From positions 1-21,375 of the IMG/VR virus record IMGVR_UViG_3300034106_004560: a stretch of DNA of 21,375 nucleotides; one strand, given 5' to 3'. The DNA is from a virus. The position numbers and the translations under genes are program-made. Positions 13,129 to 19,893 of this stretch are shown one piece after another. Below the pieces are notes generated by a model that saw nothing but the letters and a program-made list of their open reading frames with translations, was not told the origin of the DNA and did no database searches. Numbering within the stretch: the stretch's first letter is position 1; the number at the start of each line of letters is the position of its first letter.

Positions 13129-14133
13129 ATGACAATTTTAATGGAAGAGGTTTTAGCAAAGCTGGATTCAAAAACAAGAGAAAGAGTTCAGTCTGCAGTA
13201 GATGTTAAAATCATAAAACAAAAAACTCCAAGTATTGGTTTAAACTTAGCACTCAACGGTGGACTTGGACATGGAAGACAGGCCTTGGTATGGGGGAATA
13301 AGTCTTCTGGTAAATCTTCCTTTTGTTTGCAAATGATTGCTCTTGCTCAAAAAGAAGGAAAAACTTGCGCCTGGATTGACGCGGAACATTCCTATTCCCC
13401 AGAGTGGGCAGAAAAATTAGGCGTTGACTCATCAAAACTAATATACTCGCCAGCTAAAACTATTAACGACATGGTGGACATTGCAACAAAACTTATGTCT
13501 GCAGATATAGATATTATTGTAGTTGATTCAATATCAGCTTTGTTGCCTGCAATATATTTTGAAAAAGATGGCGACGAGTTAAAAGATTTACAAGATACAA
13601 AACAGATAGGCGCAGAAGCAAAGGATATGACCCACGCAGTCAAAATGTTAAACTATGCAAACAAAAACACATTATTGGTTCTCATTTCACAGCAAAGAAA
13701 CCAGTTTGGATCTATGCACGCCTCCCATATTCCAACAGGGGGAATGGCGGTCAAGTTCTTTTCTTCTACGGTCATTAAGCTTTGGTCCTCAGAAGCTGAG
13801 GCTAATGCTATCAAGGCAGGTATTAAAGTTGGCGATAAAATTATTGAACAGAGAGTTGGAAGGCCAGTCAATTGGATTGTCGATTACAACAAACTCGGCC
13901 CCCCTAATTTATCAGGACAGTACGACTTCTATTACCAAGGAGATCATTTAGGAGTTGACGATATTGGAGAAACTTTAGACGTAGCAGAAATGTGCGGATT
14001 AGTTGAAAAAGGTGGCGCTTGGTACACAGTTAACTCAGAAAGATTGCAGGGTAGATCTAAAGCCGTACAGTATCTAAAGGATAATCCAAAGGTTGTTGAA
14101 AAACTTAAGAAAGATATAGATGCTAAGATTTAA
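13129..14133 (+). CDS. recA: RecA-like recombinase
   Basis: A 334-residue RecA/UvsX-family protein. It has Walker A GNKSSGKS (56-63), the catalytic glutamate in WIDAEHSY (E86), Walker B IIVVDS (129-134), and an L2-like DNA-binding region after LISQQRNQFG (187 on) with TGGMAVKFF. It should form filaments on single-stranded DNA and drive strand exchange, supporting recombination-dependent replication with the nearby Cas4-like nuclease and resolvases. The start is ATG 13129 or the in-frame ATG 13141; neither has a strong ribosome site. The end overlaps the next gene by 14 bases. Confidence 0.93.
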   Translation: MTILMEEVLAKLDSKTRERVQSAVDVKIIKQKTPSIGLNLALNGGLGHGRQALVWGNKSSGKSSFCLQMIALAQKEGKTCAWIDAEHSYSPEWAEKLGVDSSKLIYSPAKTINDMVDIATKLMSADIDIIVVDSISALLPAIYFEKDGDELKDLQDTKQIGAEAKDMTHAVKMLNYANKNTLLVLISQQRNQFGSMHASHIPTGGMAVKFFSSTVIKLWSSEAEANAIKAGIKVGDKIIEQRVGRPVNWIVDYNKLGPPNLSGQYDFYYQGDHLGVDDIGETLDVAEMCGLVEKGGAWYTVNSERLQGRSKAVQYLKDNPKVVEKLKKDIDAKI

Positions 14134-15034
14134 TGACATTGAAAATGTAAAGGCATATAAGTTAATTGATGGAGCCATCCTGTATCAAAATGTTTTAAAA
14201 GATACTGAAGAGGTACTGTCATTTTTTAAAGAAGCAGAATTATACAAAGAAGATGTGTACGTAATGAAAAAATTTCATAATTGGGGGCAGTACGGAGTAA
14301 TGACTGAAATTGACTCAACCAGTTACCACGGATTTACTCCAGAACATTTTGATCCAAATGATCAAGAGCAAGTAAAACAAAAATCGGTTTTTGAAAAACT
14401 TGAAGATGCTTATAATTTTGTTAAAAAAGATTTTATGATTAAATATGGAAATAAAGATATTTGGCCAAGTCATTATAGCAAAGTCGATCTTTTTAATGAA
14501 TCTGAAAATACAAGAATTGCATTTTTAAAATATGATTTAGAGCTGGCAAAAAAAGCCGAACTACAAAAATTTAATTTTAGTGCTTTTCATAGCGATTTTT
14601 TTGAACAAGACATGGACACTCCTGGATATAAATTAATTTTTACTGTTATGATATATTTAAATGATGAATACGGTGGAGGGGAAATATGTTTTTGGGATGG
14701 AAAAAAAATAGTAGGATACAAACCAAAATCTGGGGACATTCTTGTTTTCCCTTCTTGCGAGCCATTTTATCACGGAGTTTTAAATATTAATAAATCTGAT
14801 AGGTACGCAATTAGAATGAACTACACCGCAATTACAGAAGGGTCAGAAGAATTTAAAAGTGGAACCCTTACACCATCATTAAATTATACTAATTATAAAG
14901 TAGGATACATATGGATAAAAGATGGAAATAAGTTTTACTCTAGCCCAGAAGCAGAAAAGCAAATTTCTACTTCCCCCCCATTAATTTTAAATTTAGATCA
15001 AATGGAAAGAGTGTTAATTGATGCCAAACATTAA
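14120..15034 (+). CDS. 2-oxoglutarate/Fe(II)-dependent oxygenase (prolyl-hydroxylase-like)
   Basis: A 304-residue protein with the double-stranded beta-helix signature: HSD (H157, D159), then FTVMIYLNDEYGGGEICFWD, GDILVFPS, and the second iron ligand H218 in YHGV, with R228 in SDRYAIRMNY as the probable 2-oxoglutarate anchor. This matches the prolyl 4-hydroxylase superfamily. The N-terminal 130 and C-terminal 65 residues are extra and may bind substrate. Phage members could hydroxylate proteins or nucleobases; the substrate is unknown. It overlaps recA by 14 bases, so it is co-transcribed with the recombination genes. Confidence 0.85.
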   Translation: MLRFNDIENVKAYKLIDGAILYQNVLKDTEEVLSFFKEAELYKEDVYVMKKFHNWGQYGVMTEIDSTSYHGFTPEHFDPNDQEQVKQKSVFEKLEDAYNFVKKDFMIKYGNKDIWPSHYSKVDLFNESENTRIAFLKYDLELAKKAELQKFNFSAFHSDFFEQDMDTPGYKLIFTVMIYLNDEYGGGEICFWDGKKIVGYKPKSGDILVFPSCEPFYHGVLNINKSDRYAIRMNYTAITEGSEEFKSGTLTPSLNYTNYKVGYIWIKDGNKFYSSPEAEKQISTSPPLILNLDQMERVLIDAKH

Positions 15035-15523: not shown

Positions 15524-15647
15524 CAAAATTCCTTTTAATCCTACTGTTATTAAAAATGGTAGAATTATTAGAATTAGAAAAGACGGAACAATAAAGGCCG
15601 ATCTTGGGCCTGTCAAGTCAAATAAGAAAAGGATTAAGAATGTCTGA
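15510..15647 (+). CDS. 45-residue basic mini-protein
   Basis: ATG 15510 has GGAG six bases upstream and lies inside the end of the nuclease gene; the TGA at 15645 overlaps the next gene. The product is strongly basic (NGRIIRIRKDGTIKADLGP, then SNKKRIKNV), with a short beta-hairpin look. It exactly fills the gap between its neighbours. Function unknown; nucleic-acid contact is likely from the charge. Confidence 0.6.
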   Translation: MGSNNKIPFNPTVIKNGRIIRIRKDGTIKADLGPVKSNKKRIKNV

Positions 15648-15978
15648 GGATAAAAATACTCTTGAGTTAATTAGCTCAATTACAGAATTTAATGACCTTC
15701 ATGAATACATGAGCGATGAACAGCTAGACAAGGCTTTATCAATTGTGGTAAAATTATTAATGAATCCAGATGTGCCTTCTGCTAAAGCACCATATTTAAT
15801 TATAGAGCTGCAAGCAATGTCAACTAAGTTTTCAATGATGGCTTCTGTTTATTCTACTATTGCAAAAGATAAAGCAGGATCAGTTAATAATAATAAAAAG
15901 AACATTTATTATTCAGCAAAGGAGTCTATAGACAAATTGGTAGATGCACTTAAATATGTAGTTAGGTATAACTCATGA
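15640..15978 (+). CDS. Helical protein of unknown function
   Basis: I choose ATG 15640 (AAAAGGA upstream) rather than a TTG at 15604, giving 112 residues. It is mostly helical (LISSITEFNDLHEYMSDEQL, AKAPYLIIELQAMSTKFSMM), ending in a Lys-rich helix. I recall no function for this plan. It overlaps the upstream mini-gene by 8 bases and shares ATGA with the next gene, so the B12-like genes that follow are in the same transcription unit. Confidence 0.6.
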   Translation: MSEDKNTLELISSITEFNDLHEYMSDEQLDKALSIVVKLLMNPDVPSAKAPYLIIELQAMSTKFSMMASVYSTIAKDKAGSVNNNKKNIYYSAKESIDKLVDALKYVVRYNS

Positions 15979-16424
15979 TTCAAAAAAGAATTATGCTGGT
16001 GTTTATTTTTATTGGTTCAGCAATAGGATTGTTTGTTTTAAATTCTAATCAACCAGAGTGCATTAACCTATACGTAGACTACGGAAATAATTCTACAGTA
16101 GAAAAGAAATGCGTCAGTGCCAGTGGTAAAGTTAATTCTTTAGATCTATTAAAGACACATGGGTATAATATAGAGGGAACAGTAAAGTATGGAAATGCTG
16201 TTGTCTGCAGAGTAAATAATTTTCCCAACAACAGTGTTGAAAAATGCCAAGACATGCCACCAGAAAATGCATATTGGGCCGTGTTAGTAAAAAAGAATCA
16301 GGCCTTGCCATTTCCAAGAAATGAATGGGGCTGGGCACAAAAGGGAATTAATGAAACTTTTGTCGAACCAGGAGACCACCTTGGCCTAGTATTTTCTACT
16401 AAAGGAGAAGTAAGATGGCCGTAG
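15975..16424 (+). CDS. Membrane-anchored DUF4430/transcobalamin-C-like protein
   Basis: A 149-residue protein. Residues 5-22 form a hydrophobic signal anchor after a Lys/Arg start; no lipobox is seen. The outer domain reads INLYVDYGNN, then SLDLLKTHGYNIEGTVKYGN, VVCRVNNFPN...KCQDMPPENAYW, and ends FVEPGDHLGLVFS. This order (VDYG, LDLLK, C.(I/V)N.FP...C, AYW, PGD) is that of DUF4430, a domain like the C-terminal part of human transcobalamin and found beside cobalamin ECF transporters in Actinobacteria. Cys pairs 29/46 and 78/91 could be disulphides. With a cobalamin adenosyltransferase two genes on, a role in corrinoid capture at the cell surface is likely but inferred. Confidence 0.7.
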   Translation: MIQKRIMLVFIFIGSAIGLFVLNSNQPECINLYVDYGNNSTVEKKCVSASGKVNSLDLLKTHGYNIEGTVKYGNAVVCRVNNFPNNSVEKCQDMPPENAYWAVLVKKNQALPFPRNEWGWAQKGINETFVEPGDHLGLVFSTKGEVRWP

Positions 16425-16558
16425 AATTATTAGAAGAAAAGGTTAAGAATAAATCTTTTCCAGTATTAATTATTGCTCAGCTTTTTATAACAGTTTTTGC
16501 TTTATATGTAGTTAATGAAATTGCAGTAGATGTTTGGCGTTCTTTAAGGGGTCACTGA
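16415..16558 (+). CDS. 47-residue single-span membrane protein
   Basis: ATG 16415 follows AGGAG by seven bases and the gene overlaps both neighbours (10 bases upstream, TGATG downstream). A charged N-terminus (VELLEEKVKNK) leads into one membrane segment (FPVLIIAQLFITVFALYVV) and a short basic end (WRSLRGH). It sits between the DUF4430-like gene and the adenosyltransferase, so it may help anchor or couple them. Function unknown. Confidence 0.65.
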   Translation: MAVELLEEKVKNKSFPVLIIAQLFITVFALYVVNEIAVDVWRSLRGH

Positions 16559-17055
16559 TGGTAATACTAAGTAAAATTTATACTAAAACTGGCGATGATG
16601 GGCAAACCTCTAACGCTAATAACGAAAGGGTATCTAAAACTAGCCCTATGATGGAAGCTATAGGTGCTGTAGATGAGGCCAACTCTGCTATTGGAATGGC
16701 AACCGATGAGTATAATAATATTATTGAAAGAGTTCAGAGCGACTTATTTGATCTTGGCGCAGAGCTTGCAGGTGCTTCAACAATAACAATATCTGAAAAC
16801 AGAGTAACATATTTAGAAAATGTAATTGATGACTATAATGAGTATCTAGAACCTTTAAGATCTTTTGTTTTGCCAACAGGACCACTGCACAATGCAAGGA
16901 CTGTTGTAAGAAGGGCAGAGCGTGAAGTTTGGAAGATAGAAAACGTAAATCCAAACATTGCTAAGTATTTAAATCGTCTATCAGACTTATTGTTTGTTAT
17001 GGCTAGATATCATAATAAAGGAAAAGAAAAAATGTGGGTGCCAAACAATGGGTAG
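16558..17055 (+). CDS. ATP:cob(I)alamin adenosyltransferase, PduO/MMAB type
   Basis: ATG 16558 (AAGGGG six bases upstream) gives 165 residues. It transfers adenosyl from ATP to cob(I)alamin to make coenzyme B12. Visible signatures: the ATP loop KIYTKTGDDGQTS (6-18), GAVDEANSAIG (36-46), FVLPTGPLHNARTVVRRAER (103-122) and YLNRLSDLLFVMAR (137-150). The loop after LP is about five residues shorter than the usual LPGGS..AA.LH, and the protein is shorter than most (about 185-190), yet the RRAER core is intact. Phages with class II ribonucleotide reductase need adenosylcobalamin; none is in this window. It forms a tight group with the DUF4430-like and small membrane genes. Confidence 0.9.
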   Translation: MVILSKIYTKTGDDGQTSNANNERVSKTSPMMEAIGAVDEANSAIGMATDEYNNIIERVQSDLFDLGAELAGASTITISENRVTYLENVIDDYNEYLEPLRSFVLPTGPLHNARTVVRRAEREVWKIENVNPNIAKYLNRLSDLLFVMARYHNKGKEKMWVPNNG

Positions 17056-17066
17056 AGACATAATAA
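17047..17066 (+). repeat. Direct repeat copy 1 (ATGGGTAGAGA start region)
   Basis: 20 bases matching 17243-17262 with two mismatches. It covers the stop of the adenosyltransferase and a dead-end ATG (15 codons). It looks like a duplicated start of the exonuclease gene. Confidence 0.6.
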
Positions 17067-17091
17067 TTATATTTTTTTGGGGAGACATTAA

Positions 17092-17244
17092 GTGAAAAAA
17101 GTATGGGCTTTAATTACAATATCAGCAACAGCGATCCTTTCAGGTTTAGCGTTATCTAAATTTTTAAAATGGGTTGGGCAACAAGAAGTTTTTGACTTTG
17201 ACCTAAATGAGGACATAGATAATGATGAATGGAATAAAGATTAA
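17092..17244 (+). CDS. 50-residue membrane protein with acidic tail
   Basis: GTG 17092 follows GGGGAGA by six bases. The product has a short Lys start, one membrane segment (VWALITISATAILSGLALS) and an acidic tail (FDFDLNEDIDNDEWNKD). It could be an anchored protein or a signal peptide with a small secreted part. Its stop overlaps the next ATG (TAATG). Near-identical 20-base repeats flank it (17047 and 17243), suggesting it was added into an older adenosyltransferase-exonuclease junction. Function unknown. Confidence 0.6.
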   Translation: MKKVWALITISATAILSGLALSKFLKWVGQQEVFDFDLNEDIDNDEWNKD

Positions 17245-17262
17245 TGGGTAGAGATATAGTAA
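17243..17262 (+). repeat. Direct repeat copy 2 (start of exonuclease gene)
   Basis: Matches 17047-17066 at 18 of 20 bases, 196 bases apart. This copy holds the working ATG of the Cas4-like gene. Confidence 0.6.
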
Positions 17263-18304: not shown

Positions 18305-18863
18305 TTTAGTAAAATCAAAAGCAAATAGAGTACTTGGCATCGATGCCTCAACTACATCTATAGCCTTTTGTTTAATGGAAAACTCAGTTCCAATTAAATG
18401 GGGGAAAATAAATTTAGCAGGACAAGATATTTATGAAAAAATATATAATGCCAAGGTTAGAATGAATTTAATGTTAAAAGAATTAAAGAGTGATTATGTT
18501 GCCGTAGAGGGAGCAGTGCTTGTCAGATCACCAGATGCTGTGATAAAATTATCTTATGTCTATGGGGTTGTTATTGCTGAGCTTATGTCTACTGGTGCTA
18601 AGGTTATTACTATTAGCCCATCCTCGTGGCAGGCGTTCATTGGCAACAAAAATCCAACAAAGGATGAAAAATCTGTTATAAGATTAGAAAATCCTGGGTA
18701 TGCAGACTCATGGTACAAAAATCAATTAAGGAATATGAGAAAGCAAAGGACCGTTGATTATTTTAATAAAAAATATAATTTAAATGTAATAGATTTTGAT
18801 GTTGCAGATTCATTTGGAATTGCACACTATGCAAACAAGGTGCTTACAGAAAGGCAAACATGA
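18291..18863 (+). CDS. RuvC-like Holliday junction resolvase
   Basis: A 190-residue RNase-H-fold protein. Acidic active-site residues stand in the RuvC order: D18 in VLGIDASTTSIAF, E73 in YVAVEGAVL, and D170/D173 in DFDVADSFGIA. It should cut four-way junctions symmetrically, resolving RecA products before packaging. The start ATG 18291 overlaps the zinc-finger gene and has only a weak ribosome site; its stop shares ATGA with the next gene. A second, unrelated resolvase candidate is at 15212. Confidence 0.85.
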   Translation: MNLASLVKSKANRVLGIDASTTSIAFCLMENSVPIKWGKINLAGQDIYEKIYNAKVRMNLMLKELKSDYVAVEGAVLVRSPDAVIKLSYVYGVVIAELMSTGAKVITISPSSWQAFIGNKNPTKDEKSVIRLENPGYADSWYKNQLRNMRKQRTVDYFNKKYNLNVIDFDVADSFGIAHYANKVLTERQT

Positions 18864-19621
18864 TTATTCAAATTATAGGACTTCCAGGTTCTGGTAAAAC
18901 AGAATTAGCTAAATCTTTAAAAGAAAGAATTAATGCTATTCACCTTAATGCAGATGAGGTAAGAGCTACTGTTAATTCTGACTTAGGATTTACTCCAGAA
19001 GATCGCATAGAACAAGCAAGACGTATGGGGGCTATGGCAAGACTTATTGCCAATCAAGGAGTTGCTCCAGTTATTGTAGACTTTGTTTGCCCAACAGCGG
19101 AAACTCGTAAAGCATTCGGTAAGCCAAATATTTTAATATTTATGGATACTATTACGCAAAGTCGTTTTGAAGATACAAATAAAATGTTTGAGCGCCCTGA
19201 AATTGCCAACGCATATTTTTCTAATCATGAACTAAATGCTGAAGAAAAAGCATCTCAAATAATTGAAAAACATGGCTTGCATGATTGGTCTGCACCAACA
19301 ACACTTATGCTTGGTCGCTATCAACCATGGCATGAGGGGCATCACGCTTTATATAAAGAAGCTGGTAAACGAACTAACCAAGTATTACTTGGAGTACGAA
19401 ATACATACAATACAAGTGAGAAAGATCCACTTAAGTTTGATCAGGTAAAAGAGTACATTGCTAAAGATAAATTTATGGATGGCGCATTAGTGCTAAGACT
19501 TCCTAACATTACTAATATTGTTTATGGTCGTGACGTAGGATATAAGATTGAACAAGTAGATTTGGGGGCAGAGATTCATGCTATTTCGGCTACTGAAAAA
19601 CGTAAAGAACTGGGCATCTAA
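18860..19621 (+). CDS. APS-kinase-like / nucleotidyltransferase fusion protein
   Basis: A 253-residue two-domain protein. Residues 1-140 look like adenylylsulfate kinase: Walker A GLPGSGKT (7-14), LNADEVR (usual LDGDNVR), GFTPEDRIEQARRMG, then VIVDFVCP. The DGDN and KGLY substrate motifs are altered, so the substrate may differ from APS. Residues 148-253 are a cytidylyltransferase-fold nucleotidyltransferase: GRYQPWHEGH (152-161, the HxGH-type motif) and ISATEKR (242-248), as in NMN or sugar/phospho-alcohol nucleotidyltransferases. Kinase plus nucleotidyltransferase could phosphorylate and then activate one small metabolite. Codons are richer in CGT, GCT and CTT than in neighbours, which hints at later acquisition. 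Confidence 0.8.
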   Translation: MIIQIIGLPGSGKTELAKSLKERINAIHLNADEVRATVNSDLGFTPEDRIEQARRMGAMARLIANQGVAPVIVDFVCPTAETRKAFGKPNILIFMDTITQSRFEDTNKMFERPEIANAYFSNHELNAEEKASQIIEKHGLHDWSAPTTLMLGRYQPWHEGHHALYKEAGKRTNQVLLGVRNTYNTSEKDPLKFDQVKEYIAKDKFMDGALVLRLPNITNIVYGRDVGYKIEQVDLGAEIHAISATEKRKELGI

Positions 19622-19709
19622 TGTTGGACAAGGAATTGCAGATGCAGAAGATAGATATATTAAAAATATGTTTAAGGAAGATATAGATGATGAAAGTAAC
19701 CAAGACTAG
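19578..19709 (+). CDS. Possible 43-residue protein in an overlapping frame
   Basis: ATG 19578 opens a frame through the end of the fusion gene and across the following 65-base gap to TAG 19709. The product has a protein-like composition (NWASNVGQGIADAEDRYIKN, then an acidic end EDIDDESNQD). It would explain the gap before the DUF2061 gene and overlap it by 23 bases. There is no strong ribosome site, and the first part lies under another gene, so it may be a shorter or spurious frame. Confidence 0.4.
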   Translation: MLFRLLKNVKNWASNVGQGIADAEDRYIKNMFKEDIDDESNQD

Positions 19710-19893
19710 ATCTTTTGTTAAGGCATTAAGTTATCGCATATGGGGAACTTTGTCCTCTGTTGCTGTTGCTTACGTGATTACAAAAAATGTTTCGCTATCT
19801 ATAACAATTGCTTTTTGGGAAACTACTGTTAAAATATTTATTTATTACGCACATGAGCGTGGTTGGAATATGATACAATGGGGAAGAAAATGA
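19687..19893 (+). CDS. DUF2061 family membrane protein
   Basis: A 68-residue protein matching DUF2061: TRSFVKALSYRIWGTLSSVA, AYVITKNVSLSITIAFWE, then KIFIYYAHERGWN and WG at the end. The family has two predicted membrane segments and no firmly known activity. From memory, bacterial members are often encoded beside sulfate-activation genes such as cysC, which fits the APS-kinase-like gene next door here. ATG 19687 or 19690 are both possible; AAGGAAG is upstream. Its stop overlaps the next small gene (ATGA). Confidence 0.85.
   Translation: MMKVTKTRSFVKALSYRIWGTLSSVAVAYVITKNVSLSITIAFWETTVKIFIYYAHERGWNMIQWGRK
19869..19881 (+). promoter_or_regulatory. Possible extended -10 promoter TATGATACAATGG
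   Basis: Identical 13-mer to that at 8632-8644 (TGA-TACAAT), again with no good -35 box, lying nine bases before the ATG of the HTH mini-gene. It also encodes residues of DUF2061, so it could be chance. Confidence 0.35.

Follow-up and report, generated by a model that had tools for sequence, protein, structure and literature searches.

A mobile phage gene cassette joining a transcobalamin-like outer domain to a cobalamin adenosyltransferase, a candidate vitamin B12 supply line

Three linked phage genes encode an outer domain with the fold of the transcobalamin beta domain (D4430c), a 47-residue membrane protein (TM47) and a PduO-type ATP:cob(I)alamin adenosyltransferase (ATR). We consider it likely that this cassette is a phage supply line of vitamin B12 for the synthesis of dNTPs. 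The genes stay together in related phages, frequently next to a B12-dependent ribonucleotide reductase, and the chromosomal relatives of the outer domain are found in actinobacterial ECF transporter operons, part of which lie behind cobalamin riboswitches. The cassette provides a concrete and testable genetic candidate.

Results and Discussion

Gene arrangement of the cassette

The DNA analysed, hereafter the window, is a virus record of 21,375 bases that carries phage replication genes of the DnaB-, DnaG-, DnaE- and RecA-type, as well as RuvC-type and Cas4-exonuclease-type genes. The preliminary description had proposed a cassette of four genes at 15975-17244. All four open reading frames were located there; three of them form a linked unit, and the fourth, encoding a 50-residue membrane protein, turned out to be an insertion. 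The features are as follows.

15640..15978, plus strand: neighbouring gene of the phrog_9818 family, function unassigned; marks the insertion slot, outside the cassette
15960..17060 (approximate), plus strand: exchanged block D4430c-TM47-ATR, from the DNA identity profile between phages
15975..16424, plus strand: D4430c, 149 residues; N-terminal helix and outer transcobalamin-beta-like domain (residues 28-143)
16415..16558, plus strand: TM47, 47 residues; single-pass membrane protein by eye, with a conserved [VI]D[VI]WR...GH tail
16558..17055, plus strand: ATR, PduO-type ATP:cob(I)alamin adenosyltransferase of 165 residues, a short form with loops deleted
17092..17244, plus strand: 50-residue membrane protein gene; insertion in part of the window's group, outside the cassette

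As read from the window sequence, D4430c, TM47 and ATR are arranged head-to-tail with overlaps: an ATGA overlap joins the upstream gene to D4430c, D4430c and TM47 share 10 nt, and the junction of TM47 and ATR is TGATG, of which the A is common to both genes. The start of ATR is the ATG at 16558 and not the TTG at 16534. The upstream gene matches phrog_9818 with an E-value of 1.3e-44, and the alignment of TM47 (A2) comprises 9 sequences. Of 129 mapped loci, 12 have the 50-residue reading frame, the window and repeats of one record being counted; it has no counterpart in loci L003, L009, L021 and L034. Control of the phage cassette by a riboswitch was considered and rejected, as no cobalamin riboswitch was found at gathering score in the window and 11 phage loci. 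PADLOC identified no defence gene, and D4430c had no match there at E-values up to 0.01.

The adenosyltransferase

The assignment of ATR as a PduO-type adenosyltransferase was borne out by its score of 171.4 bits against Pfam family Cob_adeno_trans (PF01923; cut-off 24) and of 156 bits against NCBIfam PduO_Nterm (TIGR00636; cut-off 108.45), by the best solved relative (2g2d, E 2.6e-30) and by its motifs. The motifs TKTGDDG, VDEANS, VRRAER and YLNRLSDLL, which we take to form the active site, are invariant in the 13 aligned phage sequences and largely common to 2g2d. Judged from its sequence, ATR is predicted to catalyse the adenosylation step.

For a tree of adenosyltransferases, 241 rows were reduced to 49, hosts included, by dropping sequences shorter than 150 residues, those with X and near-copies. 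All 15 phage representatives fall on one side of a single branch (95/91), and the short ATR of the window lies in a phage clade with a long branch. Two independent captures, one of the short and one of the long phage forms, are not claimed, as this single branch allows for one capture. The long-form phage enzymes are 72–78% identical to those of small actinobacterial genomes, and the closest match to the window's ATR in GenBank phage records has 42% identity.

Fold of the outer domain

No family could be assigned to D4430c in Pfam (E up to 1), PHROGs or NCBIfam (E up to 0.1). A comparison with PDB sequences gave a chance-level match (best E 0.024), and the D4430c profile found no match in the PDB, transcobalamin included, at E-values up to 10. 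The preliminary description had pictured a DUF4430/transcobalamin-C-like domain. In sequence this did not hold for DUF4430, as the Pfam family is absent from the matches of all 35 members at E-values up to 1, in a search where HMMER filters drop most weak matches; in fold it did. A first AlphaFold2 model, built from 13 phage sequences, had a pLDDT of 65, and transcobalamins took the first nine places among its PDB matches. An improved model from 26 phage and 9 actinobacterial sequences reached a mean pLDDT of 83.4 and a pTM of 0.74, being weaker in the first 30 residues (pLDDT 52–64 per block). The helix at model residues 5–21 is read as a membrane anchor, and D4430c is probably membrane anchored.

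A structural match of the outer domain to transcobalamin had been named beforehand as a test, and every one of the best 14 matches of the improved model is to transcobalamin, to intrinsic factor or to 3u7z, which we take to be a DUF4430 protein. In Foldseek the top 14 (transcobalamin or 3u7z) have probabilities of 0.99–1.00 and E-values of 0.0035–0.045, no match reaching 0.001. VIA-align gave transcobalamins, intrinsic factor and 3u7z as its first 14 rows, with Z-scores of 9.7–11.1 over residues 28–143, followed by a row at 6.0. In the model, helix 55–61 is followed by strands 66–69 and 73–80. According to the available text of PMC1796856, an extra hairpin after the helix is a mark of the transcobalamin clade and contacts B12; the strand pair of D4430c, identified by the order of elements and not by superposition, is its counterpart. 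The isolated beta domain of human transcobalamin binds cobalamin, albeit with lowered affinity, as stated in the available text of PMC5599065, and the human beta-domain structure 5np4 is among the VIA-align matches. Four cysteines are invariant in all 35 aligned D4430c proteins, 9 of which are chromosomal. No alpha/alpha-toroid partner, such as transcobalamin has, was found among the 10 window proteins scanned. A fold search of viral models with D4430c gave no convincing match (best E 0.075), a missing match in this search not being proof of absence.

Binding of corrinoids by D4430c would be in line with this fold. The beta-grasp ligand-binding superfamily is broad, including polysaccharide-export, DNA-uptake and redox proteins in the available text of PMC1796856, and D4430c could in principle bind another small ligand. 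Weaker structural rows such as Wza and GfcC, and the riboflavin name of the S component encoded beside its relatives, would agree with such a ligand. We nevertheless regard this as very improbable: the best structural rows stand well above the others, and the phage adenosyltransferase, the adenosylcobalamin-dependent phage reductase and the bacterial cobalamin riboswitches all indicate B12.

Linkage of the three genes

D4430c loci were collected without reference to ATR. In a first set, all 55 loci with room (3 of 58 being truncated) have TM47 and ATR as the next genes; in a second set, 68 of 73 do (7 of 80 having less room), the two sets having many records in common. The linkage of the three genes is therefore more than chance, since searches with D4430c only recover the other two. 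As several loci came from one record, 162 loci with D4430c reading frames of at least 135 residues without X were grouped into 26 clusters at 88%; TM47 is next in 26 of these and ATR in 25. That the two genes should stay together in related phages had also been set as a test, and they do so with some exceptions. The five exceptions of the second set belong to the L156 group, in which D4430c and TM47 are present without ATR in pieces of 12–23 kb. Conversely, of 80 ATR loci, D4430c and TM47 are present in 49 and absent from 27 that do have the upstream gene; the remaining 4 are truncated. In these 27 loci the phrog_9818 neighbour lies upstream of ATR and so marks the slot, which in locus L124 is occupied by an unrelated gene for 250 residues.

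This pattern, with D4430c and TM47 gained or lost together and ATR retained, with another gene in their slot and with the pair also occurring on its own, would suit a scheme where only ATR is metabolic and D4430c-TM47 is a different surface module, acting for example in superinfection exclusion by blocking a receptor component of B12 import. Such a scheme does not account for the position of the pair directly behind a B12-dependent reductase in other genome contexts, the L156 group included, nor for exchange tracts of the pair that take in ATR, nor for chromosomal relatives in transporter operons, and it appears unlikely to us. We prefer to see pair and enzyme as parts of one B12 supply line.

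Class II ribonucleotide reductase in related phages

A survey of related phages for a class II ribonucleotide reductase, which the preliminary description had recommended, placed such a gene directly upstream of D4430c, often overlapping it, in 19 of the 26 clusters. This enzyme belongs to the RTPR type and matches 1l1l with an E-value of 2.1e-93. The NPCAE motif and C129, C386, C666 and C671, which presumably have the catalytic roles, are invariant in the 5 sequences of alignment A5. Matches to TIGR02505 were obtained in 26 of 40 records, 10 of them above the cut-off; these 40 were picked from the loci, mostly longer ones, and a reductase was present in 18 of the 20 records of at least 70 kb among them. 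The window's group has the reductase elsewhere in the genome, in 7 of 20 records and in 7 of the 8 with at least 70 kb. In the window record, a fragment, no reductase was found.

Reductases of the RTPR kind match in 1,197 of 50,697 GenBank phage records, nearly all with less than 60% identity. Since they are so widespread, co-occurrence alone says little; adjacency and a control say more. The control consisted of 30 long reductase records (47–113 kb), chosen from 160 reductase loci for having no adjoining cassette; D4430c and ATR are both absent from 29 of the records and both present in one. The cassette is not a general property of phages with this reductase, as it adjoins the gene in 3 of 80 loci of a group A (one being the query's own record) and in none of 80 of a group B; these were the best 80 of at least 582 and the best 80 of at least 587 matched relatives, and 10 and 22 of the loci, respectively, have less than 1500 bases downstream. 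The reductases of locus L168 and of Actinomycetia phage DSL-LC01 (Dishui Lake) share 79% identity; no match for ATR or D4430c was detected in the record of this phage.

Block exchange and selection

Between 16000 and about 17060, the DNA of the window is 96–100% identical to locus L003 in each bin of 100 bases, compared to 69–76% in the other aligned pieces, and similar islands (88–100%) are seen with L009, L021 and L034. With L010 the high identity continues downstream, so the right-hand border varies. Locus L063 is 95–97% identical to the window in the aligned pieces and lacks exactly D4430c-TM47 (15980-16557), its upstream gene running straight into ATR; it also lacks 18854-19888 and diverges after the 50-residue gene. 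D4430c, TM47 and ATR have been transferred as a block between phages. The cassette genes are under purifying selection, with dN/dS values of 0.12–0.24 for D4430c (5 pairs, a sixth being saturated), 0.10 and 0.28 for TM47, and 0.02–0.06 for ATR (4 pairs, a fifth being saturated).

Chromosomal relatives in ECF operons

A pattern scan based on the phage alignment identified 17 chromosomal relatives of D4430c, all actinobacterial by title; it covered 84,980 species, each represented by a single genome, and would miss relatives without the two scanned motifs. They belong to Aurantimicrobium, Tetrasphaera, Ornithinibacter, Knoellia, Pedococcus, Marmoricola, Nocardioides and two MAGs named at order or family level, and the 9 that were aligned are 24–37% identical to the window's D4430c. 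In all 16 loci with room, the relative is succeeded by EcfT-, EcfA- and S-like genes in this order; the remaining locus (L208) stops about 0.4 kb downstream. Of the 7 loci scanned for cobalamin riboswitches, 4 (L205, L206, L210 and L212) have one at 1.1–1.7 kb upstream of the relative, and it is from their riboswitches that we take the ECF operons to be B12 importers. In Aurantimicrobium the relative is followed by a fused EcfT/EcfA gene, an S gene, one small gene and then a cobalamin-dependent metH on the opposite strand.

An SCO2321-like alpha/alpha-toroid protein is encoded upstream of the relative in 12 of 17 loci. It is toroid-type by weak cyclase and prenyltransferase matches, and three such proteins scored 66–132 bits against NF053823 (cut-off 300). 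With a toroid protein in this position, the chromosomal operons may encode a transcobalamin-like binder in two halves, each with a gene of its own.

No ECF genes were seen among the window proteins scanned (a record of 21 kb) nor, by eye, in four phage loci. This would be expected if D4430c held or salvaged corrinoids at the surface, for instance B12 from lysed neighbours, without delivering them to an importer. The chromosomal relatives, situated within the transporter operon itself wherever there is room, speak against such a function, which we judge to be quite improbable, and for delivery to an importer of the host.

Hosts and SCO2322 proteins

The phages probably infect freshwater actinobacteria; by our assignment the small genomes would be Nanopelagicales and the phages would come from fresh water. 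In the available text of PMC7527133, the B-vitamin needs of 'Ca. Planktophila' (Nanopelagicales) are described as being covered by taxa that occur alongside it, among them one with genes for B12 synthesis. A class II reductase scored above the cut-off in 10 of 14 small genomes. Hosts without ATR were considered as a general reason for the phage gene and rejected: none was matched in Aurantimicrobium, but 111 of 118 members of the class, small genomes included, have one. Since so many already possess the enzyme, that of the phage may only add to the ATR dosage.

The presumed hosts do not generally carry D4430c itself. The D4430c profile (A4) matched 2 of 14 small genomes, namely Aurantimicrobium (E 1.1e-37) and one weakly and partially (E 0.0063), and four other genomes that were looked at have an SCO2322-like protein. 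In these four small actinobacterial genomes (1.3–1.4 Mb) the genes for the SCO2322-like protein and for an EcfT-like protein come after a cobalamin-riboswitch match, which is above gathering score in one genome and below it in three. Two of the operons were read to their end, and there EcfA and S-component genes come next. Two of the four proteins are members of the SCO2322 family at 154 and 139 bits (cut-off 85), and CbiQ (EcfT) scored 40.4 bits in one of two operons and gave nothing in the other. The D4430c relative thus occupies the slot held elsewhere by SCO2322. The S component of the small genomes is 42% identical to that of Aurantimicrobium, and in Pfam the S component of the host transporter scores best, at 30.8 bits (cut-off 26.7), as one of the riboflavin type. 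Given this score, it is the riboswitch, and only the riboswitch, that points to B12 as the substrate.

Rotation of the two halves of the SCO2322 proteins raised their score against the D4430c profile in all four cases, to 17.2–24.3 bits vs 11.5–18.1 bits (a gain of 4 to 8), shuffled sequences reaching at most 3.3 bits; with a phage-only profile the gain was 0.4 to 0.8 bits. These scores suggest that SCO2322 proteins may be circular permutants of the D4430c fold.

Proposed role of the cassette

We propose that the mobile cassette would secure adenosylcobalamin for the class II reductase of the phage. D4430c, anchored and facing outward, would bind cobalamin or another corrinoid in the way of the transcobalamin beta domain and pass it to an importer of the host, most likely an actinobacterial ECF-type transporter; D4430c resembles the SCO2322-like or D4430-like secreted component of such transporters. 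The docking of D4430c to the importer or membrane may fall to TM47. Inside the cell, ATR would adenosylate the reduced corrinoid, and the adenosylcobalamin would serve the phage reductase, and the class II reductase of the host where present, to yield more dNTPs.

The joint role in B12 uptake and activation that had been suggested at the outset gains support from the fold, the linkage and the reductase neighbour, and in this role corrinoid binding and raised uptake are the parts that we infer. Capture and import are deduced from the fold, the relatives and the neighbouring genes, and a benefit to the phage during infection from linkage and selection. To a moderate degree, we also favour the broader proposal that reductase, capture protein, membrane adaptor and ATR, often in one operon, constitute a complete cofactor supply line, i.e. 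a viral system of vitamin acquisition that boosts import and activation in an auxotrophic host and is traded as a unit. The cassette would let the virus secure its own vitamin supply. If true, this would place viruses directly in the traffic of vitamin B12, among hosts that probably rely on other organisms for their B12. The cassette also gives a functional lead for a family of proteins from actinobacterial transporter operons that has no family model of its own here.

Comparison with known systems

Adenosyltransferases, reductases and B12-dependent phages are of known kinds. Phages with a class II RTPR and cobaviruses (PMC10547690, PMC6775973) likewise have a B12-dependent reductase; in the available passages of these two papers no phage genes for capture or adenosylation are reported, and the word 'adenosyltransferase' does not occur in either main text. 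That viruses with such a reductase could regulate or promote the uptake or production of B12 is put forward as a suggestion in the available text of PMC10547690, and viral genes from wastewater include a cobA-type adenosyltransferase according to that of PMC11183165. In the literature searched, which took in few subscription papers and no preprints, we found no account of a phage surface protein that captures a vitamin and is linked to its activation and use. Searches of GenBank phage records found no close relative of ATR, no relative of D4430c and no DNA match to 15900-17100.

Compared to PduO-type adenosyltransferases, the window's ATR scores above the curated cut-offs and keeps the motifs, and it differs in its length of 165 residues with loop deletions and in the long branch of its phage clade. 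With the beta domain of transcobalamin and intrinsic factor, and with 3u7z, D4430c has the fold of residues 28–143 in common; in contrast to transcobalamin and intrinsic factor, it has no alpha/alpha toroid in the same protein and no detectable sequence match to them, and it is probably membrane anchored. Unlike the ECF operons, the phage combines the secreted domain with TM47 and ATR, and neither transporter genes nor a riboswitch were seen. The anchor helix of the phage D4430c is N-terminal, whereas several bacterial relatives have, by eye, a C-terminal anchor. The closest parallel lies in the actinobacterial ECF operons with secreted proteins of the SCO2321 and SCO2322 types (NF053823 and NF040672), in which relatives of D4430c fill the slot of the secreted component.

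Gene insertion and exchange around the adenosyltransferase gene

In the window, the Cas4-type exonuclease gene begins with ATGGGTAGAGA, and a second copy of this sequence stands at the end of the cobalamin adenosyltransferase gene; the two copies flank the inserted gene for a 50-aa membrane protein (17047-17255, read from the sequence). This duplication resembles a scar left by insertion of that gene. The site between the adenosyltransferase gene and its upstream neighbour accepts differing inserts, since phage locus L124 carries a 250-aa gene (1365-2117) where other phages have D4430c, with its predicted transcobalamin-beta-like domain, and the 47-aa membrane protein TM47.

Other genes of the window

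Positions 14120-15034 encode a 2OG-Fe(II) oxygenase-type protein; in many relatives its identity is 82% or less, or the protein was not found. The product of 18860-19621 is APS-kinase-like at its N-terminus and weakly nucleotidyltransferase-like (phrog_10255) at its C-terminus, and a DUF2061 membrane protein is encoded nearby (19687-19893). Towards the left end, a large ORF (245-2302) contains repeats rich in Cys, of the form SCPGTG..GQRC/GDRCGAC. It includes a tandem repeat of period 192 (938-1363), and its product is possibly a tail or surface protein.

Bacterial genomes

In Aurantimicrobium minutum (L204), a relative of D4430c occurs together with ECF genes and metH; no adenosyltransferase match was found in the genome. 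Genome G164 (L446) has a second gene resembling ribonucleotide reductases (348603-350354), which scores under the NrdJ cut-off. About 0.6 kb upstream of this gene, and on its strand, is a strong cobalamin riboswitch (102 bits). The SCO2322-like proteins of L447, L448, L451 and L452 seem to be circularly permuted versions of the D4430c/transcobalamin-beta-like domain.
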